Source: an uncultured Paenibacillaceae bacterium (GTDB taxonomy: Bacteria; Bacillota; Bacilli; Paenibacillales; K13). Taken from it: 64,000 nucleotides of DNA. Within the stretch, counting starts at the first letter, position 1. Each line of letters begins with the position of its first letter. The stretch lies in assembly GCA_913056365.1 (NCBI GenBank), contig CAJXLT010000004.1, forward strand, positions 186,001 through 250,000, given 5' to 3'. Of the stretch, positions 9,694-63,552 are shown one piece after another. The notes under the pieces are model-generated. The model was not told the DNA's origin, did no database searches, and worked only from the letters and a program-made list of their open reading frames with translations. Both the position numbers and the translations under genes were made by a program.

Positions 9694-9732
9694 GTAGGGA
9701 CTGATTCGCTCGATACAAGGAGGAAAGCCTAT

Positions 9733-10014
9733 ATGGAAAATCAGCAACCTGCTGCGAAAGCGCCGTTGCCAGCTTCGTCCAATGCCCCTAACGCAGCATA
9801 TGGCGGTCATCATGCTCCGACCCAATTTAAGTATTATACGCCGTATTACAGCCCGCTAGATCCATGTCCGCCCATGACCGTGAAGCGCTACAATACACCG
9901 CCGAATCTGTACCTCGGCTATCAGCCGATGAACCTGCCGCAGTATCGTCCAGAGGAAGCGTTGAGGCGAGGCACATTATGGCCAATATTCTACGCTCCTT
10001 ATCCGCCGCGATAA
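9733..10014 (+). CDS. cotJA: Spore coat associated protein CotJA
   Basis: 93-residue protein rich in Pro and Tyr. The conserved core runs from about residue 35 (YYTPYYSPLDPCPPM) through TPPNLYLGYQP to ALRRGTLWP and a C-terminal YAPYPPR, matching the CotJA family. The first 30 residues are low-complexity Ala/Pro. ATG start with AAGGAGGAAAG upstream. It is the first gene of the cotJABC operon, which in B. subtilis is expressed in the mother cell and contributes to inner coat structure. Confidence 0.92.
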   Translation: MENQQPAAKAPLPASSNAPNAAYGGHHAPTQFKYYTPYYSPLDPCPPMTVKRYNTPPNLYLGYQPMNLPQYRPEEALRRGTLWPIFYAPYPPR

Positions 10015-34445: not shown

Positions 34446-34484
34446 TTAACCTACAATTTACAATTCCTTAACATGGAGATAACA
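34446..34484 (+). promoter_or_regulatory. PhoP-type box upstream of ppk
   Basis: Four hexamers at exactly 11-bp period: TTAACC (34446), TTTACA (34457), TTAACA (34468) and ATAACA (34479). This is the arrangement of TT(A/T)ACA direct repeats recognised by PhoP in B. subtilis. A CATAAT at 34494-34499 could be the -10. Confidence 0.75.
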
Positions 34485-34528: not shown

Positions 34529-36610
34529 GTGGAGAGTGCTTCTGAACGGAAGATGACCGAACTGACTGAACTGAAATACTTGAATCGGGATTTGAGCTGG
34601 ATTGAATTTAATCGTCGGGTATTGGAGGAAGCTCAAGACCATACGACGCCATTGCTGGAGCGGATCAAATTTCTATCTATCGTGTCAAGTAATTTGGACG
34701 AATTTATGAGCGTGCGTGTTGCTGGCGTGCAGGATCAGGTGAAGGCGAAATATACGAAGGAAGACTTTGCGGGCTATACGCCGCAAGTGCTGCTGAAGAA
34801 GATTATGAAGCGTTCCTCGCAGACGGTACAAGCGCAATATAAGACCTATAAGGAGCTTATTCGCTTGTTAGCTAAGGAACAGGTCATGCTGACGGATTAT
34901 GATAGCCTGAATCAATCGCAGCAGCGATCACTCGATGAATATTACCATGACATTGTATTCCCGGTGCTAACGCCGATGGCAGTGGATCAGAGCCGGCCGT
35001 TCCCGCTGGTACACTCACTTGGTATTTACTTAGCCGTAGTTCTCCATCGCGATGATGATCCATCTGATGTGGAGCCTTACTTCGCCATTATTCAAGTTCC
35101 TTCCATCCTCAACCGTTGCATCGAAGTGCCAGTTCGGCAAAACAGCAAGAAACGTGAGTATATCCTGTTGGAGCAGCTCATAAAACGTCATATTGATACA
35201 TTGTTTAGCGGGTATACGCCAATTGCCGTGCATGGTTTTCGCATCACTCGCAATGCCGATCTGACGCTGAATGAAGAAGGGGCGGAGGATTTGCTGGAGG
35301 AGATTGAGAAGGAGATCCGCCGTCGTCGCTGGGGAGCGCCAGTTCGACTGGAGATAGAGCAAGGGATGCATCCGTATTCTCTCGGAATATTGAAGGATGA
35401 ATTTGAAATAGAGAATCATGTGTTTGATATGGATGGTCCGCTCGATTTGACATTCTTGATGAAGTTCAGCGGGCAGGTGCCTGGATTAGAAAATCTGCGC
35501 TATCCTAAGGTGACGCCTGTGTATCCCGCAGAGTTTCAAGATTCAGATGATCTATTTGCCATTTTGCGCCAGCAGGACGTATTGATTCACCATCCGTATG
35601 AGTCGTTCGATGCCGTTAACGATTTTCTCGAACAGGCAGCGGAGGACCCGAAGGTGCTGGCGATTAAGATGACCTTATATCGAGTAAGCGGCAATAGTCC
35701 AATTATCCAGTCGCTTGCGAAAGCTGCTGAAGCCGGCAAGCAGGTAACAGTTGTAGTTGAGCTTAAGGCGAGATTCGATGAGGAACGCAATATTGCATGG
35801 GCGCGCCAGCTGGAGAAGACAGGCTGTCATGTTGTATACGGGCTGGTAGGTCTGAAGACACATGCGAAGATCTTGTTAATCGTCAGGCAGGAAATGAATT
35901 ACTTGCGCAGATATGTCCATGTAAGCACGGGGAATTACAACGACAGTACGGCGCGGCTGTATACGGACACAGGGCTCTTCACTACTCATCCGATTATTGG
36001 AGAGGACGCATCGGCATTGTTCAATGAGATTACAGGCTATTCGACGCCGCATGATTGGCGAGCATTCGCCGTTGCCCCTTCCGGCTTACAGGATAGATTG
36101 TTCGAACTTATTGATCGGGAAGCTGCTAATGCGCGACAGGGGAAGCCTGCCAAAATTATAGCGAGAATGAACTCGCTGAGCAACCAGGATATGGTAGATC
36201 AGCTATACAAAGCGTCACAGGCAGGTGTACAGATCGATCTCATTATTCGAGGAGTATGCTGCTTATGTCCCGGTGTGAAGGGATTGAGCGAGAATATTCG
36301 GGTGTATAGTATAGTAGATCGATACTTGGAGCATTCCCGGATCGTATACTTCGAGAATGACGGCAATCCGGAGCTGTACTTGTCCAGTGCGGATTGGATG
36401 ACTCGCAATCTGACCAGAAGAATCGAGCTGATGTGTCCGGTGTTTGATTACCGGTTGAAGCAGTCGCTGATCAATCTATTGGAGCTGACTTTATACGATA
36501 ATGTGAAGGCGCGCAAATTATTGCCGAGCGGTCAATATATACGCGTAGACAGTGGTAAGAATCCGCTGCGCAGTCAATTTGCGGCAGAAGATATTAGCAG
36601 TTGGAAGTAA
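34529..36610 (+). CDS. ppk1: Polyphosphate kinase 1
   Basis: 693-residue RNA-degradosome-type PPK1, which reversibly makes long-chain polyphosphate from ATP. N-terminal domain YLNRDLSWIEFNRRVLEEA, and the two phospholipase-D-like catalytic domains with LKTHAKILLI (autophosphorylated His, about residue 445) and LEHSRIVYFEN (second His). GTG start 34529 behind GGAGGGGGAAAT. Preceded by a Pho box, so likely induced by phosphate limitation. Convergent with ppx across a hairpin. Confidence 0.95.
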   Translation: MESASERKMTELTELKYLNRDLSWIEFNRRVLEEAQDHTTPLLERIKFLSIVSSNLDEFMSVRVAGVQDQVKAKYTKEDFAGYTPQVLLKKIMKRSSQTVQAQYKTYKELIRLLAKEQVMLTDYDSLNQSQQRSLDEYYHDIVFPVLTPMAVDQSRPFPLVHSLGIYLAVVLHRDDDPSDVEPYFAIIQVPSILNRCIEVPVRQNSKKREYILLEQLIKRHIDTLFSGYTPIAVHGFRITRNADLTLNEEGAEDLLEEIEKEIRRRRWGAPVRLEIEQGMHPYSLGILKDEFEIENHVFDMDGPLDLTFLMKFSGQVPGLENLRYPKVTPVYPAEFQDSDDLFAILRQQDVLIHHPYESFDAVNDFLEQAAEDPKVLAIKMTLYRVSGNSPIIQSLAKAAEAGKQVTVVVELKARFDEERNIAWARQLEKTGCHVVYGLVGLKTHAKILLIVRQEMNYLRRYVHVSTGNYNDSTARLYTDTGLFTTHPIIGEDASALFNEITGYSTPHDWRAFAVAPSGLQDRLFELIDREAANARQGKPAKIIARMNSLSNQDMVDQLYKASQAGVQIDLIIRGVCCLCPGVKGLSENIRVYSIVDRYLEHSRIVYFENDGNPELYLSSADWMTRNLTRRIELMCPVFDYRLKQSLINLLELTLYDNVKARKLLPSGQYIRVDSGKNPLRSQFAAEDISSWK

Positions 36611-46280: not shown

Positions 46281-46355
46281 AGGGAGTTTAAGAAGGGTTT
46301 ACTAGTAGGGAGTTTAAGCAGAGTTTACCAGGGATTTTAAGTAAGGCTTAATGAA
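46281..46355 (+). promoter_or_regulatory. Tandem direct repeats upstream of phoR, degenerate Pho-box-like
   Basis: Three tandem units of 23-26 bp begin AGGGAGTTTAAG (46281, 46307, and a variant at 46330). They place TTTAAG/TTTACT/TTTAAG/TTTACC/TTTAAG/CTTAAT at 46287, 46298, 46313, 46324, 46336 and 46347, mostly 11 to 12 bp apart. They resemble PhoP repeats but match TT(A/T)ACA imperfectly. Confidence 0.5.
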
Positions 46356-46368
46356 GGAGGGAGATTCC

Positions 46369-48165
46369 GTGAGGCGCTTTCGCATCAGATTAACGCTAAT
46401 ATTGACCGTGATGATCGGTATAACTGTGATGGGAGCCGGTTTGTTCGCAGCCAATGAGTTGCGTTCCTCCTATATTCAATCCTTGGAGAATAGTCTCAAG
46501 CGAGAACTGAATCTGATATTGATGAGCTCCTTCTGGGAGGAGGGCATGGCCGCAGATGATCCGGTTACGCATTTCACAACGTTGTCACGGCAAATGAGCA
46601 CACAAACGGAATCTCGTGTCACGTTCATTCGTCAGGACGGTACTGTGTTAGGCGATTCCGATCACGATCCCGCCGATATGGACAACCATATTGCGAGAGA
46701 GGAAATCCAGGATGCGCTTCAGGAAGGGCAAGCGGGTTCGACGATTCGATACAGTAATACGGTGAAGGAGGAAATGCTGTATACGGCAGTTGCTGTCCGC
46801 CAAGACGGTGAGGTGCAAGGATTTATCAGGATGTCCAAGTCAATCGAAGATGTTCAGGCTTATGTGCGCCAGCTCTGGTCTTACTTGCTGTTCGGTCTGC
46901 TGATTCTGTTCCTCGCTGCCGCTTTGGTGAGTTATCGCATTGCTCAAGGGTTGACCCGACCGTTGGACAAAGTAATGCAGGTTGCCGGACAAATTTCCAA
47001 CTCCAATTATTTGGCCCGTGTTCCGCTCAAGAGCAAGGATGAATTCGGTAAGCTTGGTCAAGCGATTAATACGATGGCAGACAGTTTGCAAGCACAGATG
47101 AACCACATCAAGGAAAACGAAAGCCGGCTGGAAAGTGTTCTGGAGAATATGAACAGCGGTGTGTTCATGATCGATCGTACTGGAAAGATGGTGCTGATCA
47201 ACCGTTTTGCTGAGGAAATTCTCGGCTATGAAGCCAAGGAACTGTTGAACAAAACGTATACGGAAACGCACCATCATCATGAGCTTAGCGAGCTTGTTCA
47301 AGCTTGTATTACGAACCGTGCACCAGTCCGCGAGGAACTGACCTTCTACTATCCAACCGAACGGATGCTAGACATTCATCTCGTCCCGTTGTGGCATGAG
47401 GAGCAGGATTGGAGCGGTCTTGTCGTGGTCATGCATGATATTACTGCAATTCGAAGACTGGAGAAGATGCGCAGCGAATTCGTCGCCAATGTATCTCACG
47501 AGCTGAAGACTCCGATCGCAGCTGTCAAGGGATTCGCGGAAACCTTGTTGGCAGGGGCCGTGCAGGACCCGAAAACCGCCGAATCCTTCCTGCAGATCAT
47601 CTATGATGAAAGTGAACGGCTCGACCGCTTAATCGTCGATATTCTGGAGCTGTCCAAGATCGAATCGAAGCGTATCCCGTTGCAGTTCTCACCGTTGCAT
47701 CTGCAGAGCTTTGCCGACCGCATCTTCCATGTGATGAAATCACAGGCAAGCAAGAAACAGATTGATCTGGAATTAGATATAGCAGATGATGTGTACTTGG
47801 AAGCGGATGAGGATCGTCTTCGCCAAATTTTCATTAATCTTCTGTCCAATGGCATTAACTATACAGGAGCTGGAGGCAAAGTGAAGGTGAATGCAGTCTG
47901 TGTACCAGACTCGACGTCTGATCAGGAAGTTGTGCGTATCTCTATCGCAGACACGGGAATCGGTATTCCGAAGAAAGACTTGCCTAGAATTTTCGAGCGA
48001 TTTTACCGTGTAGACAAGGCAAGGTCGCGCAGTTCAGGCGGAACAGGACTCGGACTGTCGATTGTGAAGCATCTGGTCGAGCTGCATAATGGCCGTATTC
48101 ATGTAGAGAGCGAGCAAGGACTTGGTACGACGTTTGTCATCGAACTGCCTGTGCTGCAATCATGA
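46369..48165 (+). CDS. phoR: Phosphate sensor histidine kinase PhoR
   Basis: 598-residue sensor kinase. TM1 near residues 10-30, an extracytoplasmic domain to about 160, TM2, HAMP, PAS (GVFMIDRTGKMVLINRFAEEILGY), HisKA with VANVSHELKTPIAAVKGFAE (phosphorylated His) and HATPase with N box, DTGIGIPKKDLPRIFERFYRVD and GGTGLGLSIVKHLVE. Start is GTG 46369, after AAGGAGGGAG; the ATG at 46351 lies upstream of that site. It precedes phoP, the reverse of the B. subtilis phoP-phoR order, and sits in the conserved slot between mdh and polA. Confidence 0.9.
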   Translation: MRRFRIRLTLILTVMIGITVMGAGLFAANELRSSYIQSLENSLKRELNLILMSSFWEEGMAADDPVTHFTTLSRQMSTQTESRVTFIRQDGTVLGDSDHDPADMDNHIAREEIQDALQEGQAGSTIRYSNTVKEEMLYTAVAVRQDGEVQGFIRMSKSIEDVQAYVRQLWSYLLFGLLILFLAAALVSYRIAQGLTRPLDKVMQVAGQISNSNYLARVPLKSKDEFGKLGQAINTMADSLQAQMNHIKENESRLESVLENMNSGVFMIDRTGKMVLINRFAEEILGYEAKELLNKTYTETHHHHELSELVQACITNRAPVREELTFYYPTERMLDIHLVPLWHEEQDWSGLVVVMHDITAIRRLEKMRSEFVANVSHELKTPIAAVKGFAETLLAGAVQDPKTAESFLQIIYDESERLDRLIVDILELSKIESKRIPLQFSPLHLQSFADRIFHVMKSQASKKQIDLELDIADDVYLEADEDRLRQIFINLLSNGINYTGAGGKVKVNAVCVPDSTSDQEVVRISIADTGIGIPKKDLPRIFERFYRVDKARSRSSGGTGLGLSIVKHLVELHNGRIHVESEQGLGTTFVIELPVLQS

Positions 48166-48180
48166 CATTTTAACGATCGC

Positions 48181-48208
48181 TTTACAAAAAATTTACACAC
48201 TATTTACA
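48181..48208 (+). promoter_or_regulatory. PhoP box upstream of phoP
   Basis: TTTACA at 48181, 48192 and 48203, exactly 11 bp apart, 45 nt before phoP. A TATGAT at 48213-48218 could be the -10. It predicts autoregulation of phoP from its own promoter, independent of phoR. Confidence 0.8.
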
Positions 48209-48252
48209 AACATATGATAGGATGAGTTTGTCCACATTGGGGGGGATCTGGC

Positions 48253-48975
48253 TTGTCGCAGAAAATTCTAGTTATTGAGGATGAACCGACGCTGTCTAGA
48301 CTGCTGTCGTATAATTTGTCGCAGGAAGGCTACGAGGTCAAGGTAGTGGAGAATGGGGCTGACGGCTTGCAGGAAGCGGTCGACGGCGAGTATCAGCTGA
48401 TCGTGCTGGATATTATGCTGCCTGGAATGAACGGCTTAGAGGTGCTGACCAAGCTGAGGCAGAAGCAAATTCGAACACCTGTCATCATCTTAACTGCACG
48501 CAATGCGGAGGATGAGGTCGTGCAAGGTCTGAAGCATGGCGCGGATGATTACATGACGAAGCCATTCGGTGTGGCGGAGTTGCTGGCGCGAGTGGCTGCG
48601 GTATTACGGCGCTCACAGGGTGAGGCTGTGGTGGATCATCAATCAGAGTCGGAAGAGAAGGTCATTGCATTAGGGGAATTGTCGATCTATCCGGACAAGT
48701 ACGAGGTTGTGCTGCATGGTGACTCGATCCCTCTGCGTCCGAAGGAATTCGAGGTGCTGCTATACCTGGTGCAGCGTCCGGGAGTAGTGGTGACACGGGA
48801 CGACTTGATGAACATGGTGTGGGGCTTCGATTATATCGGTGGCCAGCGTACGGTAGATGTGCATGTCAGCTCGCTGCGGAAGAAGCTGGAGATGAATCAG
48901 GAAACAGTGCAGATCGACTCGATTCGCGGTGTAGGGTATAAGCTCGTCATCAAGAAGAACGGAAGACCGGCATGA
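48253..48975 (+). CDS. phoP: Response regulator PhoP (OmpR family)
   Basis: 240-residue OmpR/PhoB regulator. Receiver: KILVIEDEPTL (acidic pair), LIVLDIMLPGMNGLEVL with phospho-acceptor Asp, TARNAEDEVVQGLKHGADDYMTKPF. C-terminal winged helix: LRPKEFEVLLYLVQRPGVVVTRDDLMNMVWG and RTVDVHVSSLRKKL. Start is TTG 48253 with a G-rich GGGGGGGATC site. Neighbouring phoR and a PhoP-type box support the name. It faces the AraC gene. Confidence 0.9.
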   Translation: MSQKILVIEDEPTLSRLLSYNLSQEGYEVKVVENGADGLQEAVDGEYQLIVLDIMLPGMNGLEVLTKLRQKQIRTPVIILTARNAEDEVVQGLKHGADDYMTKPFGVAELLARVAAVLRRSQGEAVVDHQSESEEKVIALGELSIYPDKYEVVLHGDSIPLRPKEFEVLLYLVQRPGVVVTRDDLMNMVWGFDYIGGQRTVDVHVSSLRKKLEMNQETVQIDSIRGVGYKLVIKKNGRPA

Positions 48976-51513: not shown

Positions 51514-51516
51514 CTT

Positions 51517-51680
51517 GAAGCTGAAAAGGGGCAGCATTCCGGAAGCGCGCGAAGCTGGAAAAGGGCAGCATTCCGGAAGCGCGCGAAGCTGGAAAAGGGC
51601 AGCATTCCGGAAGCGCGCAATTGTCAGTAGCGCAGCATTACCGGAAGTGCGCAAAGCTGTCAATAGGGCGGCATACCGCA
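51517..51680 (+). repeat. 34-bp tandem repeat, three good copies plus decay
   Basis: A unit close to GAAAAGGGCAGCATTCCGGA followed by AGCGCGCGAAGCTG (34 bp) occurs three times from 51523 to about 51625, then as two decayed copies to about 51680. The first unit has one extra G. The reading frame across it is biased and repetitive, but I do not consider it a gene. It lies upstream of the sigma factor gene. Confidence 0.8.
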
Positions 51681-53337: not shown

Positions 53338-53400
53338 AACGAGGAGTTTGGCAAGGGCATCCAATATTGATGATCATCTCGGCGAAGGGGAGCAGAAGTG

Positions 53401-54153
53401 ATGAATATAGTTGAAGTTGAAGGGTTAGACCTGTATTATTCTGAATTTCATGCATTGAGAAATATTCATATGACGATGCGGTCCCATGAAGTTACCGCAT
53501 TTATCGGACCTTCGGGCTGCGGGAAATCAACCTTCCTCCGCACTTTGAACCGAATGAATGATCTGATCAAGGGTGTGCGTATTACGGGGAAAGTGAAGAT
53601 TAAGTCGCAGGATATTTACGAAAGCGGTATAAATCCTGAATTAATTCGCAAAGAAGTAGGCATGGTGTTCCAGCAGCCGAATCCATTCCCTAAGTCGATC
53701 TATGACAATATCGTATATGGTCCTAAGGTTCATGGCATTCGCAGCAAGAGTGACTTGGACGATATCGTGGAGCAAAGCTTGCACAAGGCTGCGTTATGGG
53801 ATGAGGTGAAGGACCATCTCAAGAAGAATGCATTCGGGCTATCTGGTGGGCAGCAGCAGCGGCTGTGTATTGCACGCGCGCTGGCAGTTAATCCTGACAT
53901 ACTGCTCATGGATGAACCGACCTCGGCGTTGGACCCAATCTCAACGTTGAAGATCGAGGAGCTCATCCAAGATCTGAAGCAAAGCTACACGATCATTATT
54001 GTGACGCACAATATGCAGCAGGCAGCACGTGTATCTGATCAAACAGCTTTTTTCCTGAATGGTGAAGTGGTGGAGTTCGGCGATACGACGCAGCTCTTCT
54101 CCACGCCGACCGATCAGCGGACAGAGGATTACATTACTGGAAGATTCGGTTAA
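53401..54153 (+). CDS. pstB: Phosphate ABC transporter ATP-binding protein PstB (orphan copy)
   Basis: 250-residue ABC ATPase. Walker [12 protein letters not shown] loop in [15 protein letters not shown], signature [15 protein letters not shown], Walker [12 protein letters not shown] and H-loop THNM. Close paralogue of the pstB in pstSCAB (59862-60668); the last 60 residues are nearly identical. ATG 53401 after GGGGAG; an adjacent GTG 53398 is possible. It is transcribed alone, between an anti-sigma gene and a terminator. Confidence 0.9.
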
Positions 54154-54197
54154 GAGCTAATAGGCTAGGCTGTATCTGCATCAAATATATATTTACA

Positions 54198-54228
54198 AAA
54201 CCGTTCATGTTGAACGGTTTTTTTGTGG
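54198..54228 (+). terminator. Terminator after orphan pstB
   Basis: Arms AAACCGTTCA and TGAACGGTTT, three-base loop, followed by a T run. A clear intrinsic terminator. Confidence 0.9.
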
Positions 54229-54400
54229 TTTTTTGCATAGCATATGTCCAATCGTGTAATTTGTACGATCTATCGTTACTACTTACCTGCTCGAAATCTA
54301 CTACTTAACGCATGTTGAAATGGACTTGAGTAAGTAACAATATCCGGGACGGAAAGAGTAGCGGTAGGAGCGGAAAGAATGACAGCACCAGCAAGTTGAA

Positions 54401-54606
54401 CTTGTCACGGTCACGCGTGTCCGCTAGAGCGAAAAAATACACATTTTTGATTTTTAACGGTCGCCGATGTCCATTAGCGGAAAAAAATCGCCGTTTTGAC
54501 CGGTCCATTCAACGCTTACGGTCATCCGTGACCGTTACATTGTCAAACAACGCCTCATACGCCTTGTGACGGTCACCGATGTCCGTTAAAGTGATTCCCA
54601 ATCGTC
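54401..54606 (-). repeat. Dispersed intergenic repeat, copy B (inverted)
   Basis: Reverse-complement copy of 11215-11418: the same order of modules, including TAACGGACATCGGTGACCGT, TAACGGTCACGGATGACCGT, GGACATCGGCGACCGTTA and GGACACGCGTGACCGT, read on the minus strand. By eye roughly four of five bases agree. The rest of 54229-54700 has no gene. Confidence 0.85.
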
Positions 54607-54707
54607 TCAGACGGTGGTAGCGGTATGATCAGCTAGGTCAGGGACAATCGGCAATGGTCGAAGAGAGAAGCCAGACAGGTATAGAAAGTATCTAGGAAGC
54701 AAAACTT

Positions 54708-54724
54708 TTTACACAAAGTTTACA
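54708..54724 (+). promoter_or_regulatory. PhoP-type box upstream of the chemoreceptor gene
   Basis: TTTACA at 54708 and TTTACA at 54719, exactly 11 bp apart, both perfect. A third repeat is not seen on either side. The box is about 210 nt from the start codon, with AT-rich candidate -10 strings (TGATAT) shortly downstream. Confidence 0.55.
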
Positions 54725-54933
54725 AACTCACGAAGATCAGATGATATTGGCTTGTTAAGCTAGGAGAACATGGGGCATATCGAATCATGCGGTATCATCG
54801 GAAAGTATGTCGAAATCGTGTCCACACATTTATGAGGAAGGAGAGATCAAGCGACGTAATTCCTATATCCGGGCAACAATTGGGGTTGGCAGGTACATAG
54901 ATAGATATCATTTCTTCGGATGGAGGGTGCAGA

Positions 54934-56688
54934 TTGATCACTACTGTATGGAAGCGAACACATCAAGTAAGACCGCAGGCGCTGTCTGTTAACGAGGAGC
55001 AGATGCGAACTTGGAGCCGTTCATTCAGCCGGCTAAGCTTGCGGAACCGATTACTGATCTTATTCATCACCTTAATGGTACTCTCAACAGCAGCGGTAGG
55101 TATTAGCTCTTACATGAAAGCTCAGCAGACATTGGTACAAACAGTGGAGGATCGCTTAGAACGGGAAGCAGATGTCATGTCCTATGTCGTTCGCAATCTG
55201 AAGTTCGTCTACGTCAGTGATGAGCAATACTTCAGAAACCAGCTGGAAATGAGTATTCATGAACAGAAGCGTCAGTTGGAGAACAATGGCTTGGTTTCGA
55301 CGTTTTACTCTGTTGTTAACGGCGTCGCAACACCGTTCGATGCTAGCAAGGACAGCACACTCCAATTGTCCGGTTCGATCTTGGATGCAATTAACAATGA
55401 AGGGGACAGAGTGTTCCACAGAAGCATACAAGGAGAGGACTATACGATTGCAGTGAAGGCGATGCCGGAAATTGAGGGGAAATATGTGCTACTAGTGGAA
55501 CGTGATTCGTATCTCGGTCCCATCTATCAAATTGCGCAATTCGTGCTGATTATTATTATTGGAAGTTTGGTAGTTTCGATATTGCTTATTCTCTGGTTCG
55601 TTCGAAGCTTGACCCATCCATTGACACAATTGAAGCAGATTATGGAAGGGGTCAGGGATGGGAACTTGACGCAACAAATTCAGGTGCGAACGAAGGTGCC
55701 CGAGATTGCTTCACTGAAAACTAGCTTCACTACGATGCTGGAACAAATGCGTGCCGTTATTACTGAACTGAACGATACAACGAAGGACTTGAATGAGACT
55801 GGCGGCAAGCTGAGCGACACTTCAGATGAAGCATTATCCTACAGCAAACAGTTAATTGAATCGATTCAAGTGGTGAAGGACGGTGCTACTCAGACTGCAG
55901 AGGGCTCAGAGATGAGCTTGTCCCGCTTTCATGAAATGAAGGAGAAGCTAGCCTCTATTCTGCAAAGCATGGGTGACTTGTCTAACCGCTCTGCCGAAAT
56001 GGATCATGCAGCCAAGCAAGGAGAGACGAGTGCAGCAAGTTTGATGAATACGATTCGTCAATATGAAACGGATTTCACGCACATGGTGAAGACGGTAGAA
56101 GAGGTGAAGGAGCACTCATCATCGATTGCCGGTCAAGTCGGGCTTATTCAAGAGATTGCCAGCCGGACGAAGCTGCTTGCCTTGAATGCTTCAATAGAAG
56201 CTTCAAGGGCAGGCGAAGCGGGTAAGGGGTTCACTGTAGTCGCAACTGAGATTCGCCAACTCGCGGAACAATCTAACAATGCAGCAGAAGTTATTACTAG
56301 ATCGATTCGGAATATGGAGCATGTTACGCTTGGGGCCATGGAAGAATTCCATCGCATGATTGAGAAGGTGGATCATCATTTGGGCATGGCTAATCAATCT
56401 AAGGACGCATTGGACAATCTGATGGCGAATATTGATACGGTGAGTATGCGCTTGAAAGCCATGCAAGGAGAGCTGCAAGGATTGTATGGGACGCTACCAG
56501 TTCTGCAGGAGGTTATGATGAGATTTGCTTCCGTATCCCAGGAAACATCTGCAAGTGCGGAGCAAATGCTGTCACTGAGCTATGACCAGATGTCTCAGAT
56601 GGAGCGTACCCACGAATCGGGACAGCAATTGACGCAATTGGCGATTTCACTTGGTACGAAGACGAAGCAATTTCGATTGAATGGATAG
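54934..56688 (+). CDS. Methyl-accepting chemotaxis protein
   Basis: 584-residue chemoreceptor. TM1 at about residues 40-59, an extracytoplasmic sensor domain to about 195, TM2 ([21 protein letters not shown]), HAMP, and the signalling domain with the hairpin tip [29 protein letters not shown] (about 405-433). Start is TTG 54934, behind TGGAGGGTG. The sensor domain resembles no ligand domain I can name. It lies between an orphan pstB and pstS, and a Pho-type box precedes it, which suggests control by phosphate. Confidence 0.88.
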
Positions 56689-56744
56689 ATGTGCTGTAGG
56701 CAATTAAGCAACATTATAGCAAGCGGAGATAGAGTCACGGAAAT

Positions 56745-56772
56745 TTTACATTCTGTTAACATTCTATTGATA
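56745..56772 (+). promoter_or_regulatory. PhoP box upstream of pstS
   Basis: TTTACA (56745), TTAACA (56756) and TTGATA (56767) at an 11-bp period, about 75 nt upstream of pstS. The first two match the TT(A/T)ACA pattern exactly. Confidence 0.75.
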
Positions 56773-56845
56773 GAGACATAACACTGACAAAGTAAGATAA
56801 GAATCGTTAATAGAAATATAAATATCGAGGAGGAAATTGTACGTG

Positions 56846-57904
56846 ATGAAGAAGCTAGTGAAATCTACTGGGGTCGTTTTTCTAGTTGCTGTCATGATGG
56901 CTGTTGTCGTAGCTTGTGGAGGAGCGAATAACAGCGGTGGTAACACAGCAGCGAACGAAGGTGCGCAGAACGCTGCTAACAACCAACAAGGAAATAATGG
57001 GTCTGCGAATGCAGAAGAGCCGGTGGATGAATCGTTGTCCGGTACAGTAATTATTGATGGTTCCGGAACTGTATATCCGCTTATGGCACGCATTGCAGAA
57101 GAGTATATGGCTACACAACAGCCAGATGTTAGTGTTCAGGTAGGTCGTGCAGGTTCATCTGCTGGTCTGAAGAAGTTCATTCCAGGCGAGCTTGACTTCG
57201 CGGATGCTTCCCGTCCTATCAAGGACGAAGAGGTTGCACAGCTAGAAGAGAACGGACTGACTATGGGTGAGGACGTAATGGAAATTAAACTCGCTTATGA
57301 CGGATTGACTATGGTCATTAACAAAGAGAACGACTGGGCTACAGAAATGACGCAAGAAGAGATCGTGAACATGTATTTGTCCGGTCAATATGCAGATGAT
57401 GATGTTGTGCTATGGTCTGACATTCGGGAAGGCTGGCCGCAAGAAGAAATCAAATTCTTCGGTCCGAATGAAAACCACGGAACGTATGAGTTCTTCTACG
57501 AAGTCATTCTAGATGAACAGGATATGGTAACGACAGCTAATCTGCAGCAAGAGTACTCCACGTTAGTTGATCTGGTATCCAAGGACAAGAATGCAATTGC
57601 ATTCTTCGGGTACGGTTATTATGTCAGCAACACAGATAAGCTAACTGCAGTGAAAGTAGACTTCGGCGCAGGTCCAGTTGAGCCGACGCTTGATACAATC
57701 GGTGAGGATCTCGATTATGCTGGCTTCACTCGTCCTGTATTCACATACTTGAATACACAATATGCACAAGAGAAGCCGGAAGTATTGGATTATGCTTACT
57801 ATGTGCTGGAAGCTGCACCGCAATTCGCTGGTGAAACAGGTTTCGCTCCGATGCCGGATTCTGTGTTTGCAGAATACAAAACACAATTGGACGCATTGAA
57901 ATAA
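56846..57904 (+). CDS. pstS: Phosphate-binding lipoprotein PstS
   Basis: 352-residue phosphate-binding component of the high-affinity ABC importer. Lipoprotein signal ending VVAC (Cys about residue 24), then an Asn/Gly/Ala-rich linker (about 25-60), and the binding core with GSGTVYPLMARI, GSSAGLKKFIPGELDFADASRPI and ENHGTYEFF, which supply phosphate ligands. I use ATG 56846 with CGAGGAGGAAA upstream; GTG 56843 and TTG 56837 are possible. First gene of pstSCAB-phoU; a strong hairpin follows. Confidence 0.93.
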   Translation: MKKLVKSTGVVFLVAVMMAVVVACGGANNSGGNTAANEGAQNAANNQQGNNGSANAEEPVDESLSGTVIIDGSGTVYPLMARIAEEYMATQQPDVSVQVGRAGSSAGLKKFIPGELDFADASRPIKDEEVAQLEENGLTMGEDVMEIKLAYDGLTMVINKENDWATEMTQEEIVNMYLSGQYADDDVVLWSDIREGWPQEEIKFFGPNENHGTYEFFYEVILDEQDMVTTANLQQEYSTLVDLVSKDKNAIAFFGYGYYVSNTDKLTAVKVDFGAGPVEPTLDTIGEDLDYAGFTRPVFTYLNTQYAQEKPEVLDYAYYVLEAAPQFAGETGFAPMPDSVFAEYKTQLDALK

Positions 57905-58031: not shown

Positions 58032-58964
58032 TTGGCGAATAATAACTTAGGTGTTAAGGAGCAGATTCAACAAAATTTGCAAAAGAGAAACAAGCGACTG
58101 ATGGAGAAGGCGGTACCGCTTCTGTTGTTTACAGCAGCATTTATTTCCGTGCTTACGACCATCGGCATCGTGCTGACATTAGTATTTGACACCTTTCAGT
58201 TTTTCAGAAAGGTTCCTTTCTGGGAATTTTTCACTAGTACGGACTTATCTCCACTAGGCAAGGATCCATCCTTCGGGATTTTACCCTTGATTAACGGTAC
58301 GATTATCTCCTCTTTGATAGCAATGTGTGTCGCGATCCCAATCGGTTTAACTTCGGCGATATACTTGAGTGAATATGCGACAGATCGGGTTCGAAAGCTT
58401 GTGAAGCCGATGATGGAAGTGCTGGCTGGTATTCCGACGATTGTGTACGGATTTTTTGCCTATTCCTTCGTCACACCGATATTGACTTATATTATTCCTG
58501 ACTTGGGTGCAAAAAATGTGCTTAGCCCCGGTATTGTAATGGGGATTATGATTATTCCATTGGTAGCATCGCTCTCTGAGGATGCAATGAGCTCGGTGCC
58601 TAATTCGATGCGTGAAGGCGCATTGGCATTAGGCGCAACGCGGTTCGAGGTTACGCTGAAGGTCATTATTCCTGCTGCAATCTCGGGAATTATTGCCTCC
58701 TTCGTACTTGCCGTGTCTAGGGCGATAGGCGAAACGATGATTGTGACGATTGCAAGTGGCAGTTCGAAGAACTTCACTTTTGATATAACGGAGTCTATGC
58801 AGACGATGACAGCGTATATTGTTGAATTCACCAGCGGTGACGCAGGCAGCGGTACGGTAGGCTATTACAGCTTGTATGCGGTTGGATTCACGCTGTTCTT
58901 CTTCACGCTCATTATGAATTTGATCGCACAGTATATCTCTCGCAAGTTTAGGGAGGCTTATTAA
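58032..58964 (+). CDS. pstC: Phosphate ABC transporter permease PstC
   Basis: 310-residue permease with six hydrophobic segments; first helix VPLLLFTAAFISVLTTIGIVLTLV. The EAA-type loop is visible as MREGALALGATRFEVTLKVIIPAAISGI. TTG start 58032, a weak AAGGCGG site. Follows pstS after the attenuator and is 1 nt from the pstA start. Confidence 0.93.
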   Translation: MANNNLGVKEQIQQNLQKRNKRLMEKAVPLLLFTAAFISVLTTIGIVLTLVFDTFQFFRKVPFWEFFTSTDLSPLGKDPSFGILPLINGTIISSLIAMCVAIPIGLTSAIYLSEYATDRVRKLVKPMMEVLAGIPTIVYGFFAYSFVTPILTYIIPDLGAKNVLSPGIVMGIMIIPLVASLSEDAMSSVPNSMREGALALGATRFEVTLKVIIPAAISGIIASFVLAVSRAIGETMIVTIASGSSKNFTFDITESMQTMTAYIVEFTSGDAGSGTVGYYSLYAVGFTLFFFTLIMNLIAQYISRKFREAY

Positions 58965-58965
58965 T

Positions 58966-59844
58966 TTGAAACAGAACACAGATCAGATGAACAGAATGAA
59001 ACAGCGATTGCTCTTGAATAATCTGATGAAGCATTCTTTCTTGTTCTTGACGCTCATTGCCTTGGCAGTGCTAGTGATCTTGATTGTGCAAGTATTCACA
59101 CAAGGGATCGGCTGGCTGGACTGGAACTTCCTTACGAGCAAGCTGTCGCTGAATCCGGATCGTGCCGGTATACTGGGTGTCATTGTCGGTACCATTCTAC
59201 TGATGGTCGTTGTCGGACCTGTGACGATGCTGCTCGGTATCTGTACGGCTATTTACTTGGAGGAATACGCGAAGAAGGGCAGGGTGCATTCGTTCATCCA
59301 AACGAATATTTCGAACTTGGCTGGTGTTCCTTCTGTTATATTCGGCTTACTCGGCCTGACGGTGTTCTCTCGCATGTTCAATCTGGGATCGAGTATTGTT
59401 GCTGGGGGCTTGACGATGTCGCTGCTCGTGCTGCCGATCGTCGTCGTTGCCAGTCAGGAAGCGATTCGCGCAGTGCCGCAGTTTTTAAGAGAAGCGTCGT
59501 ATGGGATGGGAGCTACGAAGTGGCAGACGATACGCCGGATTGTTCTGCCTGCTTCCTTACCCGGAATTCTAACAGGGATGATTCTGTCACTCTCCCGTGC
59601 AATAGGTGAGACTGCGCCACTCGTCGTGCTTGGTATTCCGGTGTTAATTATGCCGGTACCTGACAGTCTGATGGATGACTTCACAGCGCTGCCGATCCAG
59701 ATCTATTATTGGACGCTCGATGCCGTTCTGACAGCTGAGTATGCCAACTTGGCAGCGGCGACGATTATCGTCCTGTTGATTGTGTTGTTCATTATGAACT
59801 CAGCTGCAATCTTCATTCGTAACAAGTTTCAGAAACGATATTAG
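58966..59844 (+). CDS. pstA: Phosphate ABC transporter permease PstA
   Basis: 292-residue permease paired with PstC. Six hydrophobic segments, first [23 protein letters not shown] loop [28 protein letters not shown] and the conserved [13 protein letters not shown] region. TTG start at 58966, one base after the pstC stop, with GGGAGGCTTA upstream. Cotranscribed with pstB and phoU. Confidence 0.93.
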
Positions 59845-59861
59845 GAAGGAAGGGTTGTCCA

Positions 59862-60668
59862 ATGATCCAGCTCATGGAGAAGGAAGACGCTGCGACGGCA
59901 GCAGATCAGAGGAACGAGATCGTCCTCGATACGAGAGAGTTGAACTTGTGGTATGGCCCAGAGCAAGCATTGAAGAACATTGCTCTGCAGATGAGCGAGA
60001 AGCAGGTTACTGCGATTATCGGTCCGTCCGGCTGCGGCAAGTCGACGTATATCAAGTCGTTGAATCGTATGGTGGAGATGAATCCACTCGTGCGGATCAC
60101 GGGTCAGGTCATGTTCAAGAAGCGCAATATCTTCCATAAGAACTACAGCGTCGAGGAATTGAGGACACAAGTGGGCATGGTGTTCCAGAAGCCGAACCCG
60201 TTCCCGAAGAGCATATATGAGAACGTAGCTTACGGTCCGAGAATTCACGGTATTCGCAAGAAGAAGCTGCTTGACGAAATCGTGGAGAAGAGTCTGCGCG
60301 ATGCTGCGCTGTGGGATGAAGTGAAGGATCGACTGAATGAGAATGCATACGGCTTGTCGGGTGGCCAGCAGCAACGACTCTGTATCGCCAGAACATTGTC
60401 CATCGAACCGGAAGTCATCCTCATGGATGAGCCGACTTCGGCGTTGGACCCGATCTCGACATTGAAGATTGAGGAGCTCGTCCAGGAATTGAAGCAGGAT
60501 TATACGATTGTTATCGTCACGCACAACATGCAGCAGGCTGCACGGGTGTCCGACCAGACAGCGTTCTTCTTGAATGGGGAAGTCGTGGAATTCAACGACA
60601 CGGTCACATTGTTCTCTAATCCGAACGATCAGCGCACAGAGGATTATATTACCGGGAGATTCGGATAA
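59862..60668 (+). CDS. pstB: Phosphate ABC transporter ATP-binding protein PstB
   Basis: 268-residue ATPase of the Pst complex: [17 protein letters not shown] (Walker A), [16 protein letters not shown] (Q loop), [15 protein letters not shown] (signature), [22 protein letters not shown] (Walker B) and [13 protein letters not shown]. It has an 18-residue extension at the N-terminus compared with the orphan copy. ATG with AAGGAAGGG upstream. The C-terminal [18 protein letters not shown] matches the orphan almost exactly, indicating a duplication. Confidence 0.94.
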
Positions 60669-60698: not shown

Positions 60699-61358
60699 GT
60701 GCCTACAAACCGCCAACAGTTTGATGATCAGCTAAATACGTTGCGCAGTGCGCTTGTTGAAATGGGGCGCAAGGTGGAAGAAGCGATCTTGAATTCCGTC
60801 AAGGCGCTGAAGGAGACGGATCTTGATCTCGCTCAGCAAATTGTAGATCAGGATGTCGAAGTGAATCAGATCGAAGAGAAAATCGATGAGATCGGCACGA
60901 CGTTGATTGCCACGCAGCAACCGGTTGCCAAGGACTTGCGGCGCATTCTGACTGCCTTCAAGATGGCGAGTGACTTGGAGAGAATGGGGGATCTCGCGGT
61001 AGATATCTCGAAGGTCGTCATGCGCATTGGTAATGATGCGTTAATCAAGCCGCTTGTCGATATCCCGCGCATGGCAGAAATCGTTCAGCTGATGATCGCG
61101 GAATCGATTCAAGCTTATATGGAGGAGAATGTGGATCTCGCATACAAGATGGCGAAGATGGACGATGAGGTTGACCATCTGTACAGTCAAATTTTGCGCG
61201 AGCTGTTCGTCTTCATGGTAGATAATCCGAAGACAGTCAACCAGTCGCTGCTGCTCTGCTTCGTCAGCCGCTATATGGAACGGATGGCTGATCATGCTAC
61301 GAATATCGGCGAGAGCGTCGTCTATCTAGTAAGGGGACATCGACCGGATCTGAATTAG
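60699..61358 (+). CDS. phoU: Phosphate transport regulator PhoU
   Basis: 219-residue helical protein with two PhoU repeats; conserved metal-site segments are visible in VDQDVEVNQIEEKIDEIG (first repeat) and in MDDEVDHLYSQ and ERMADHATNIGESVVYL (second repeat). PhoU links the Pst transporter to PhoR, repressing the Pho response when phosphate is sufficient. GTG start 60699 with AAAGGGGTAGG upstream. Last gene of the pst operon. Confidence 0.94.
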   Translation: MPTNRQQFDDQLNTLRSALVEMGRKVEEAILNSVKALKETDLDLAQQIVDQDVEVNQIEEKIDEIGTTLIATQQPVAKDLRRILTAFKMASDLERMGDLAVDISKVVMRIGNDALIKPLVDIPRMAEIVQLMIAESIQAYMEENVDLAYKMAKMDDEVDHLYSQILRELFVFMVDNPKTVNQSLLLCFVSRYMERMADHATNIGESVVYLVRGHRPDLN

Positions 61359-61761
61359 TAGAACGAAACAACTCTGGATTACGGAAAGAATTGGTCTTAT
61401 GGAAGCGAAATACGGATTGCGCTCGGGAATAGTGGAAGTTATCGGTCTTAACTACGTGTCATGAGTAAAGATGCTTGTGTGAGGCCGGTGATAGGACCAA
61501 GAATTTCCCTTAACGACGCATTACCTCGTATTTTGTCTTTATAAGACCATTTTGTTCTTTTAAATCATCTGCCTGTGCTACTGCTTACCCCGATCCGATT
61601 ACGATATAGGTGGTTATCATCATTCGACGAATTTCGCTATTTTTACACAAATTTAATAGAAAGCTGTACATCCGTTGACACAGACTTGCTATGCTGTTGA
61701 GACAGAAAGCGGATTGCTAATCCACGCGAGGGACGCAAGCAGGTTGAAGGAGAGGAATCAT
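61359..61761. other. Intergenic stretch with inverted related segments
   Basis: About 400 bp without a gene. A 22-nt segment at 61393-61414 (GGTCTTAT at its start, AAATACG at its end) recurs inverted at 61529-61550 with 17 of 22 matches by eye. It also holds TTTACA at 61642 and TTAATA at 61653, 11 bp apart, a weak Pho-type pair before the EAL-GGDEF gene. Confidence 0.5.
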
Positions 61762-63552
61762 ATGAGCAGAATCCTAAGCCAGGTTGATGGACACGAGGGG
61801 CGTGCAGATTTCTACGATATATTACATACAGCATCGATCTGGTCGGTCTATCAGCCCATTGTCTCCTTGAAGGACGGAGTTGTGTTCGGGTACGAAGCAT
61901 TGACGAGAGGCCCGGAGAAGTCGGCATTCCGTTCACCGCTCAAACTGTTTCGCACGGCGGAGCAGGAAGGGAAGCTATACGAACTGGACAAGCTTGCCAG
62001 AGAGAAGGCGATTCGCGGCTGCGGCAAGCTGTCAACCGAACAGAAGATATTCATTAACATTCCGGCCTCTATTATTCTGGAGCCGGATTTCACACCGGGA
62101 CAGACATTGCGTCTACTGCAGGAGTGCGGCTTACACCCGACGAACGTAGTGTTGGAAATTACGGAGCGCACCTCTGTTGAGAATTTCGACACAGCGAAGC
62201 GCGTGTTGGAGCACTATCGCAAGCAAGGATATCAAATTGCAATTGATGATGCAGGAGCAGGCTATTCCTCATTAGAAGCGATTGCTGAGCTGCAGCCGGA
62301 CTATATCAAGATCGATCGTTCCTTGACTGAGCAGATTCATACGAGTCGAGTGAAGGAATATATTGTGGAGACGTTCGTCACGTTCGCCACGAAGATGAAT
62401 ATCGGGCTGATCGCAGAAGGAATTGAGCGGTTGGAAGATCTGGATAAGCTGATGCGTATGGGCGTCCATTATGTGCAGGGCTACTTGCTTGGCAGACCGA
62501 ACAAGTTGCTTATTGAACCGGAGCCGGAGATTCAACAATTCATATTGAAGCTGTCCGACAATATGGCGCGTGCGCCCTATCAGAAGACGATTGGCGACTT
62601 GGCAGCTCGTACGGGGTGCTTCACGGTAGGTACGCCAATCTCGGAAGTATCCCTGTACTTGCGCCAGCATGATGAGGAGCAAGGCGTGGCAGTCGTAGAC
62701 ACAACTGGCAAGCCAGTCGGTCTTATGATGCGTGAGAAGCTGTTTCAAGAGCTGTCCGGGCAATACGGGATCGCCTTGTTCTGGGGCAAGCCGGTGGAGC
62801 AGCTCATGGATGATCGTCCACTCATCGTCGAGGAGTATACTAGTCTAGAGCGCGTCTCCAAGCTGGCTATGGCTAGAGAGATGCGACGCTTATACGATCT
62901 GGTTATGATTACGAAGGACGGCATGCTGCAAGGAACGGCATCTGTCCGTTCCATTCTTGAGCATATTACGCATATGCAGATGGAGGCAGCTCGTGTATCC
63001 AACCCGCTGACTGGATTGCCGGGCAACAAGGAAATTCAACGAGTAGTCAGGACCATGTGGTCGTCGGCAGCACCGTTCGCTGTCATCTATGCTGACTTGG
63101 ACCACTTCAAGTGGTACAACGACCATTTCGGCTTTCAGCAAGGGGATGAAGTGATTCAGTATACGGCTTCTGTCCTCAGACAGACGATTCGGCAGTTGGG
63201 GACAGCGGATGACTTCGTCGGTCATATTGGCGGTGATGATTTCATTGCACTGACCTGTGTTGATGACCCAGAGCTGCTGAGTCAAGAGATCGTTGAACGG
63301 TTTGATGCGGGGATCGATCGGTTTTATCATGGCGAGGAGATTCACTATGTGCTGGACCGAGAAGGGAATACCGTACAGCAGAATGGGATTACACTTTCCA
63401 TATCGCTCGTCATCTGTGATGAACGCGAAGGGCTCATGCCGGATGCATTGGCGCGTATGGCAGCAGAGCTTAAGAGCGGGGCGAAGGCGATGAAGGGGAG
63501 CGCGGTATGTGCGCGAAGACTGCGACGTGTATTGCAGGTCAACGGATCGTAG
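61762..63552 (+). CDS. EAL-CBS-GGDEF cyclic-di-GMP protein
   Basis: 596 residues. The N-terminal EAL domain (about 20-250) keeps YEALTR, ITERT, DDAGAGYSSL and KIDRSL, so phosphodiesterase activity is plausible. A CBS pair (about 280-400) follows. The C-terminal GGDEF domain has DLDHFKWYNDHFGFQQGD and GHIGGDDF near residue 490; GGDD fits a working active site, but the usual RxxD inhibitory site is replaced by TADD. ATG 61762 follows AAGGAGAGGAAT. It sits between phoU and polA; the Pho link is uncertain. Confidence 0.9.
   Translation: MSRILSQVDGHEGRADFYDILHTASIWSVYQPIVSLKDGVVFGYEALTRGPEKSAFRSPLKLFRTAEQEGKLYELDKLAREKAIRGCGKLSTEQKIFINIPASIILEPDFTPGQTLRLLQECGLHPTNVVLEITERTSVENFDTAKRVLEHYRKQGYQIAIDDAGAGYSSLEAIAELQPDYIKIDRSLTEQIHTSRVKEYIVETFVTFATKMNIGLIAEGIERLEDLDKLMRMGVHYVQGYLLGRPNKLLIEPEPEIQQFILKLSDNMARAPYQKTIGDLAARTGCFTVGTPISEVSLYLRQHDEEQGVAVVDTTGKPVGLMMREKLFQELSGQYGIALFWGKPVEQLMDDRPLIVEEYTSLERVSKLAMAREMRRLYDLVMITKDGMLQGTASVRSILEHITHMQMEAARVSNPLTGLPGNKEIQRVVRTMWSSAAPFAVIYADLDHFKWYNDHFGFQQGDEVIQYTASVLRQTIRQLGTADDFVGHIGGDDFIALTCVDDPELLSQEIVERFDAGIDRFYHGEEIHYVLDREGNTVQQNGITLSISLVICDEREGLMPDALARMAAELKSGAKAMKGSAVCARRLRRVLQVNGS

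Follow-up and report, generated by a model that had tools for sequence, protein, structure and literature searches.

A chemoreceptor gene beside pstS in a Paenibacillaceae bacterium is a probable member of the Pho regulon

In the 64-kb stretch of DNA analysed here (the window), the gene of a methyl-accepting chemotaxis protein (MCP) lies upstream of pstS, and several lines of sequence evidence suggest that it encodes a chemoreceptor of the Pho regulon. We assign a probability of about 0.78 to the whole explanation, i.e. including the mechanism and a response to phosphate. Control of the gene by phosphate, taken alone, is likely, and its probability is higher than that of the whole statement. 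The evidence comprises a Pho-type box upstream of the gene, the conservation of its best part in a second genome, and the recurrence of such boxes upstream of related receptor genes.

Results

Organisation of the phosphate region

The window belongs to genome G000, and the sole other genome of the genus and family that was available for comparison was G001. Table 1 lists the features of the region. The preliminary description had placed the MCP gene between an orphan pstB and pstS, and the open reading frames, the NCBIfam PstB model and the Pfam HAMP and MCPsignal models agree with this.

Table 1. Features of the phosphate region of the window
Feature	Position	Strand	Basis
Polyphosphate kinase gene ppk	34529..36610	+	NCBIfam profile
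Pho box of ppk, 22/24	34446..34484	+	Four-hexamer score
phoR-type sensor kinase gene	46351..48165	+	NCBIfam PnpS, above cut-off
Pho box between kinase and regulator genes, 23/24	48170..48208	+	Four-hexamer score
phoP-type response regulator gene	48253..48975	+	Named from partner kinase and box; no NCBIfam equivalog cut-off reached
Second (orphan) pstB	53398..54153	+	Above NCBIfam PstB cut-off
Terminator-like hairpin 3′ of orphan pstB	54197..54221	+	Hairpin scan; also in G001
Pho hexamer 1, TTTACA	54708..54713	+	Sequence; identical in G001
Pho hexamer 2, TTTACA	54719..54724	+	Sequence; identical in G001
Weak registers 3 (ACGAAG, 1/6) and 4 (ATGATA, 3/6)	54730..54746	+	Four-register scan
Possible −10 TAAGCT, weak (3/6), 9 nt after register 4	54756..54761	+	Four-register scan
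Shine-Dalgarno GGAGGG of MCP	54922..54927	+	Sequence; kept in G001
MCP gene, 584 aa, TTG start	54934..56688	+	ORF; Pfam HAMP, MCPsignal; Cache-type sensor between two predicted membrane helices
Pho box of pstS, 21/24, −10 TAAGAT 9 nt after	56745..56783	+	Four-hexamer score
pstS	56837..57904	+	ORF and profile
pstC, pstA, pstB	58032..60668	+	ORFs and profiles
phoU	60699..61358	+	Profile
Pho-type box 5′ of EAL-GGDEF-CBS gene, 17/24, −10 TATGCT 9 nt after	61642..61680	+	Four-register scan

The MCP gene probably has its own transcription start, because the hairpin 3′ of the orphan pstB would separate the two genes. A scan of positions 54100-57000 revealed no + strand terminator between MCP and pstS, so the MCP transcript may run on into pstS. 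The orphan pstB is not preceded by a box that passes the four-register and −10 scan (see below), and no RNA leader was found, i.e. no Rfam family reached the gathering score anywhere in the window. At 46351-48975 a strong Pho box separates the kinase gene from the regulator gene that follows it; the order in Bacillus subtilis is phoP first and phoR second. A unit like AAGCTGGAAAAGGGCAGCATTCCGGAAGCGCGC is present in tandem near-copies at 51515-51650.

A Pho-type box upstream of the chemoreceptor gene

The PhoP hexamer of B. subtilis is TT(A/T)ACA. A perfect pair of this Firmicute Pho box type, TTTACA-N5-TTTACA (54708-54724), precedes the MCP gene in an 11-bp register on the coding strand, 210 nt before the start codon. 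Four well-matched registers are absent, i.e. the matches are 6, 6, 1 and 3 of 6, giving a total of 16/24. The possible −10, the weak TAAGCT (3/6), begins after a gap of 9 nt, as at pstS and ppk. If it is taken as the −10, the arrangement of four registers at 11 bp and a −10 after 9 nt agrees with that upstream of ppk, phoP and pstS in the window. The preliminary description had noticed the two perfect hexamers 11 bp apart, and its two reservations, only two good hexamers and a distance of about 210 nt to the start, both hold.

To estimate how far such sites exceed chance, counts were compared with shuffled or reversed controls. With up to two mismatches, TTTACAN5TTTACA has nine matches in the window versus 2.9 expected, and none of 100 shuffles reached nine. 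Perfect TTWACA pairs at 11 bp occur five times on the + strand and never on the − strand of the window; in 200 Markov shuffles, both strands together gave a mean of 0.01 and a maximum of 1. In the whole genome (4.65 Mb), TTWACAN5TTWACA has nine matches versus five for the reversed pattern, and five of the nine fall inside the window. Two genome matches, C1:946277 and C14:55861, were rejected as Pho sites; both have a longer TTTACAATCCCTTWACATGATG motif in common, and the genes that they precede are on the other strand, so they look unrelated to Pho. The pair at C30:6535 lies between open reading frames that we read as ftsH- and nadA-like.

We scanned the window for four registers scoring at least 16/24 with a −10-like hexamer 9 nt on. 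Matches were found at five places, all on the + strand and 5′ of ppk, phoP, MCP, pstS and the EAL-GGDEF gene, and there was no match on the − strand. The scan gave six hits (ppk as two overlapping ones); shuffles averaged 0.39 and never exceeded 2. Among 300 Markov shuffles of the 400 nt upstream of MCP, 5% reached the score of 16/24 and none reached a perfect pair. A genome-wide search of G000 for four hexamers with up to three mismatches returned phoP (two overlapping hits), ppk, pstS and one further place (control: 1); the MCP box is missing from this list because it is too weak. A full four-register Pho box at G000:C2:220481-220519 (L002) lies between divergent subtilase-family and methyltransferase genes and is also present in G001 (C14).

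The points against the MCP box are its score of 16/24, the two poor registers, the 3/6 match of the −10 and the distance of 210 nt from the start. Judged from the sequence, the box appears to be real, yet apart from its geometry it is the weakest in the window.

Conservation in a second genome

The gene order is the same in G001, and the receptor gene is kept between pstB and pstS. The hexamer pair, including its 5-nt spacer, is the same in both genomes. The preliminary description had tied its proposal to the persistence of the hexamers in close relatives that keep the gene, and in G001 the gene, its place and the pair have all persisted. The block from the box to the −10 (54703..54761, +) is identical at 53 of 59 positions, and the following 159 nt at 95 of 159. 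The possible −10 is TAAGCT (3/6) in G000, at exactly 9 nt, and TATGCT (4/6) in G001.

G001 lacks a segment of 464 nt that precedes the box in G000 (54231-54694, between pstB and MCP) and in which, by eye, a unit like ACGGTC..CCG.TGTCCGTTA recurs in several near-copies. In G001 a frameshift interrupts the receptor gene (L035, about 9700-9760) at a tract of eight G; the corresponding tract of G000 is four G long. The frameshift could be genuine, an assembly error or a switchable tract.

The receptor and its sensor domain

The MCP matches the Pfam models HAMP (33.8 bits) and MCPsignal (101.6 bits), both above cut-off. An AlphaFold2 model of the sensor, based on a nine-row alignment, has a mean pLDDT of 87 and shows a long helix followed by a five-stranded Cache-like domain; long terminal helices flank this domain in the model. 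The sensor (residues about 62-200) is predicted to be a Cache-type domain of roughly 140 residues. The sensor alone yielded no Pfam family even at an E value of 10, including no Cache model, and Foldseek found Cache-type sensors, none at E below 0.001. Many of the best VIA-align matches are Cache-type sensors, i.e. Helicobacter pylori TlpB (Z 12.4, 144 residues, 3.9 Å, 8% identity), the WalK sensor (Z 11.8) and Bacillus velezensis McpA (Z 10.4, 121 residues, 3.4 Å, 10% identity), and two integrative models of full-length receptor and kinase complexes rank above them. The model thus assigns the sensor to the same fold class as TlpB and McpA, Cache/PAS-like with a long N-terminal helix.

This shared fold tells nothing about the ligand, and the sensor sequence does not yield one. 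Solved Cache-fold structures bind organic acids, amino acids, urea and others. Genes for a CheA domain and flagellin were found in both genomes, with two CheA-dimerisation and five flagellin matches above cut-off in G000.

The receptor family and its genomic neighbours

A scan of named genomes with PstC retained 80 loci of 575 relatives. Some MCP signal domain is present in 18 of these 80 pst loci, and the same receptor, sensor included, in eight (sensor cores 33-43% identical): Ornithinibacillus contaminans, Halalkalibacter oceani, Alkalihalophilus marmarensis, Anaerobacillus alkalilacustris, Paucisalibacillus globulus, Oceanobacillus jordanicus, Virgibacillus salexigens and Oceanobacillus manasiensis. 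The preliminary description had suggested such a search of related genomes, and all eight genes have boxes, with scores of 19-21/24 within about 120 nt of the chosen start. The A. marmarensis gene lies directly 5′ of pstS in the same direction, as in the window. As to a recent import, the first scan of named genomes gave 13 pattern matches, and no relative was encoded at any of them.

For the family search we used a profile of the sensor alone (A4), i.e. irrespective of genomic position. At E up to 1e-12 it detected the receptor in 43 of the 398 class genomes sampled, and at E up to 1e-30 in 132 of 397 genomes, belonging to 62 of 135 genera, sampled from the order of G625. Scoring of three candidates per genome in the order of G000 gave the receptor in two of 392 sampled genomes (E up to 1e-45). 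The window genome may have acquired the gene horizontally from other Bacilli; we do not claim this, because the tree places the window loosely (support 81, end branch 0.83).

Genomic regions were fetched for 40 of the 42 non-window class matches and for 60 of the 116 further order matches (the best 40 and 20 from further down the list). These 100 regions and six distinct named loci make up 106 distinct relatives, the window itself excluded; the frameshifted L035 and the duplicates L084 and L093 had been dropped from 109 regions. Of the 100 receptors found by the sensor profile, 22 have a Na/Pi cotransporter gene within about 6 kb, 13 a pst gene, two ppk and one a PstS-like gene; gene families were checked on ten neighbours. 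For 62 of the 100, none of the phosphate genes looked for lies within this distance, and the tie to phosphate is the box alone. A quick tree of 107 proteins requires about 12 changes of pst linkage, at least eight of them on well-supported branches, so the linkage comes and goes. A DUF1189 gene recurs beside the receptor gene, often together with a Na/Pi cotransporter gene (L199, L201, L205, L206, L274, L275 and others).

Pho boxes across the receptor family

Scores of at least 18/24 were obtained for 87 of the 106 distinct relatives versus 44 of 721 other genes of the same loci, the latter including true Pho genes (Fisher p about 7e-65, kinship ignored). A chemoreceptor under PhoP, which the preliminary description had called no more than suggestive, thereby gains support at the sequence level. 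The same score was reached by 1.3% of shuffles and on the reverse strand by 12 of 106. The threshold of 18 was set after the scores had been seen; every threshold from 17 to 20 separates the family from the controls. After clustering of the proteins at 90, 75, 60 and 50% identity, the fractions were 75/92, 60/73, 41/50 and 26/28, respectively. The named loci provide two yardsticks: a score of at least 18 is reached by 76 of 78 pstS genes and by 40 of the 1101 remaining genes.

In the family regions, the mean best pair score peaks at spacings of 11 (11.06) and 22 (10.65), while all other spacings in the range from 7 to 23 gave values of 9.1-9.9, and the 11-bp signal is on the coding strand. A −10 with at least 5/6 matches exactly 9 nt after register 4 is present at 50 of 87 family sites and 20 of 70 pstS sites, and 9 nt is the commonest offset in both. 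The family regions are slightly richer in A+T than the controls (GC 0.347 versus 0.378). The other MCP genes of G000 and G001 comprise 27 loci, three of them without a score; none of the 24 scored exceeds 16 or has a perfect pair, and one also scores 16.

The box follows the receptor rather than the locus, because 87 of the 100 relatives found by the sensor profile lie outside about 6 kb of pst. Of these 87, 73 score at least 18, as do eight of the 13 pst-linked ones. Nineteen of the 106 relatives remain below 18, and the window box (16/24) would fall among them. They include a genus-level group, f26, at 16-17 (six scored of seven rows), three members of group f32 beside pst, and several close relatives. 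Scores can depend on the start codon, e.g. L079 has 20 with the chosen start and 15 with the first start codon.

Other receptor types beside pst

Ten receptors outside the family were scored in the named pst loci. Double-Cache receptors directly 5′ of pstS in Alkaliphilus and relatives (Clostridia) have scores of 21 (L057), 22 (L063), 17 (L064) and 19 (L066), and a four-helix receptor of Cytobacillus gottheilii (L104) scores 21. L063 falls to 14 if 250 nt upstream are used instead of 345 nt. L056 scores 17 and is on the opposite strand. No own box was found for two Fusibacter receptors inside the pst operon (L062 and L073, both 15), and none for two more distant receptors (L122 and L131, both 14). 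Pfam double-Cache matches were significant in both receptors tested, at 37.3 (under the cut-off of 45) and 55.9 (over it). Pho boxes before unrelated receptors at pst loci would make this a case of convergence.

Discussion

In many Gram-positives the switch of the phosphate-starvation genes stands before this receptor family, and starved cells may thus produce a dedicated sensor that steers them towards phosphate. When phosphate is short, the PhoR-type kinase would phosphorylate PhoP, which would bind the direct repeats at 54708-54746 and recruit RNA polymerase at the −10 near 54756, in the same geometry as at pstS, ppk and the phoP gene. The receptor would be inserted in the membrane with the Cache-type sensor outside and the HAMP domain and signalling hairpin inside, and would signal to the CheA and flagella of the genome. 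At the time of pst induction, the cell would thereby respond more strongly to phosphate or to a signal linked with it, e.g. loaded PstS. Steering by phosphate would be the most economical purpose of the receptor, and phosphate may be its ligand, either directly or through PstS.

The binding protein could, however, be another one. The WalR box resembles TGTWAA-N5-TGTWAA, the complement of the Pho hexamer pair, and the best NCBIfam match of the window regulator is the YycF model, albeit below cut-off, so that WalR (YycF) might bind the repeats and the receptor might belong to cell-wall control. We consider this highly improbable: the same sites precede pstS in nearly all named loci and also ppk and phoP, their orientation and the 9-nt gap to the −10 are those at pstS, phosphate genes are neighbours, and the partner kinase passes the PnpS and not the WalK cut-off. 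It is also improbable, if slightly less so, that the hexamer was doubled by chance and that the gene has an ordinary sigma-A or a motility sigma-D promoter. A promoter scan gives TTTACA-N18-GATATT (54719-54748) 9/12 matches as a sigma-A promoter, but GATATT is GATCTT in G001, where both hexamers are kept, and chance cannot account for the 11-bp signal throughout the family. The sigma-D pattern TAAA-N15-GCCGATAW, with one mismatch allowed, is no commoner than its control (53 versus 39 in G000, 63 versus 68 in G001) and was rejected.

A different question is whether a receptor under Pho control serves phosphate taxis at all. It might respond to another cue, or act on gene expression or c-di-GMP during starvation, in keeping with the variety of Cache ligands, the silence of the sequence on a ligand and the 62 sampled relatives without a phosphate gene nearby. 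Recurrent linkage to pst and Na/Pi cotransporter genes makes such a purpose rather unlikely, as do the known phosphate receptors of Pseudomonas and Campylobacter, which are tied to phosphate genes in a similar way (see below).

Our preferred reading, a Pho-controlled receptor for phosphate, has partial parallels in other bacteria. In Pseudomonas aeruginosa, CtpH and CtpL are described as chemoreceptors for inorganic phosphate that act when phosphate is low, CtpL being stimulated by phosphate-loaded PstS, with residues 27-324 as the CtpL ligand-binding domain and CtpH as a four-helix bundle (PMC4926252). The window family resembles CtpL as a receptor tied to low-phosphate control, and it lies beside pstS in some genomes. 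It differs from both in its Cache-type sensor of about 140 residues and its Firmicute Pho box; the sensors are set apart here by their descriptions. Tlp2 of Campylobacter jejuni, a member of another phylum, is reported to mediate taxis to phosphate (and iron) and to be cotranscribed with phoX, and the paper leaves control of tlp2 by PhosR still to be tested (PMC6250842).

The B. subtilis Pho regulon shares with the window the TT(A/T)ACA-type repeats, the 11-bp period, the coding strand and the position before pstS and phoP. A review gives its repeat unit as 11 nt; the terms chemotaxis and chemoreceptor have zero occurrences in this review, and its passages on the regulon name no receptor (PMC4415409). 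Chemotaxis also has zero occurrences in PMC6232261. Insoluble phosphate affects several MCP and flagellar genes of Paenibacillus sonchi (PMC7793946), which does not amount to a Pho link. Judged by titles, abstract beginnings and passages of the open-licence literature, we recognised no Pho-controlled or phosphate chemoreceptor in Bacillus or other Firmicutes. The receptor family has been little noticed so far. Chemotaxis and the Pho regulon are both textbook systems in Bacillus, unlinked in the literature searched, and receptors that carry their own Pho switch offer a genetically simple test of whether starved Gram-positives seek phosphate. In rhizosphere and alkaliphilic bacilli, this family would provide the candidate receptor.

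Chemotaxis tuned by phosphate starvation may be general in Gram-positives, a wider proposal to which we give even odds. The Cache family would be a standing Pho member across Bacilli regardless of position, and Clostridia and some Bacillaceae would have recruited unrelated double-Cache or four-helix receptors beside pst, amounting to convergent wiring of nutrient uptake to movement. This genus may add a Pho-controlled c-di-GMP enzyme, in which case starvation would retune both steering and the choice between swimming and settling. The EAL-GGDEF-CBS gene downstream of phoU is a possible link from phosphate starvation to c-di-GMP: its registers are TTTACA, TTAATA, CTGTAC and TTGACA, followed at 9 nt by TATGCT (61642-61695). 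Its likely start is the ATG at 61762, and the Pho-type box is nearly identical in G001.
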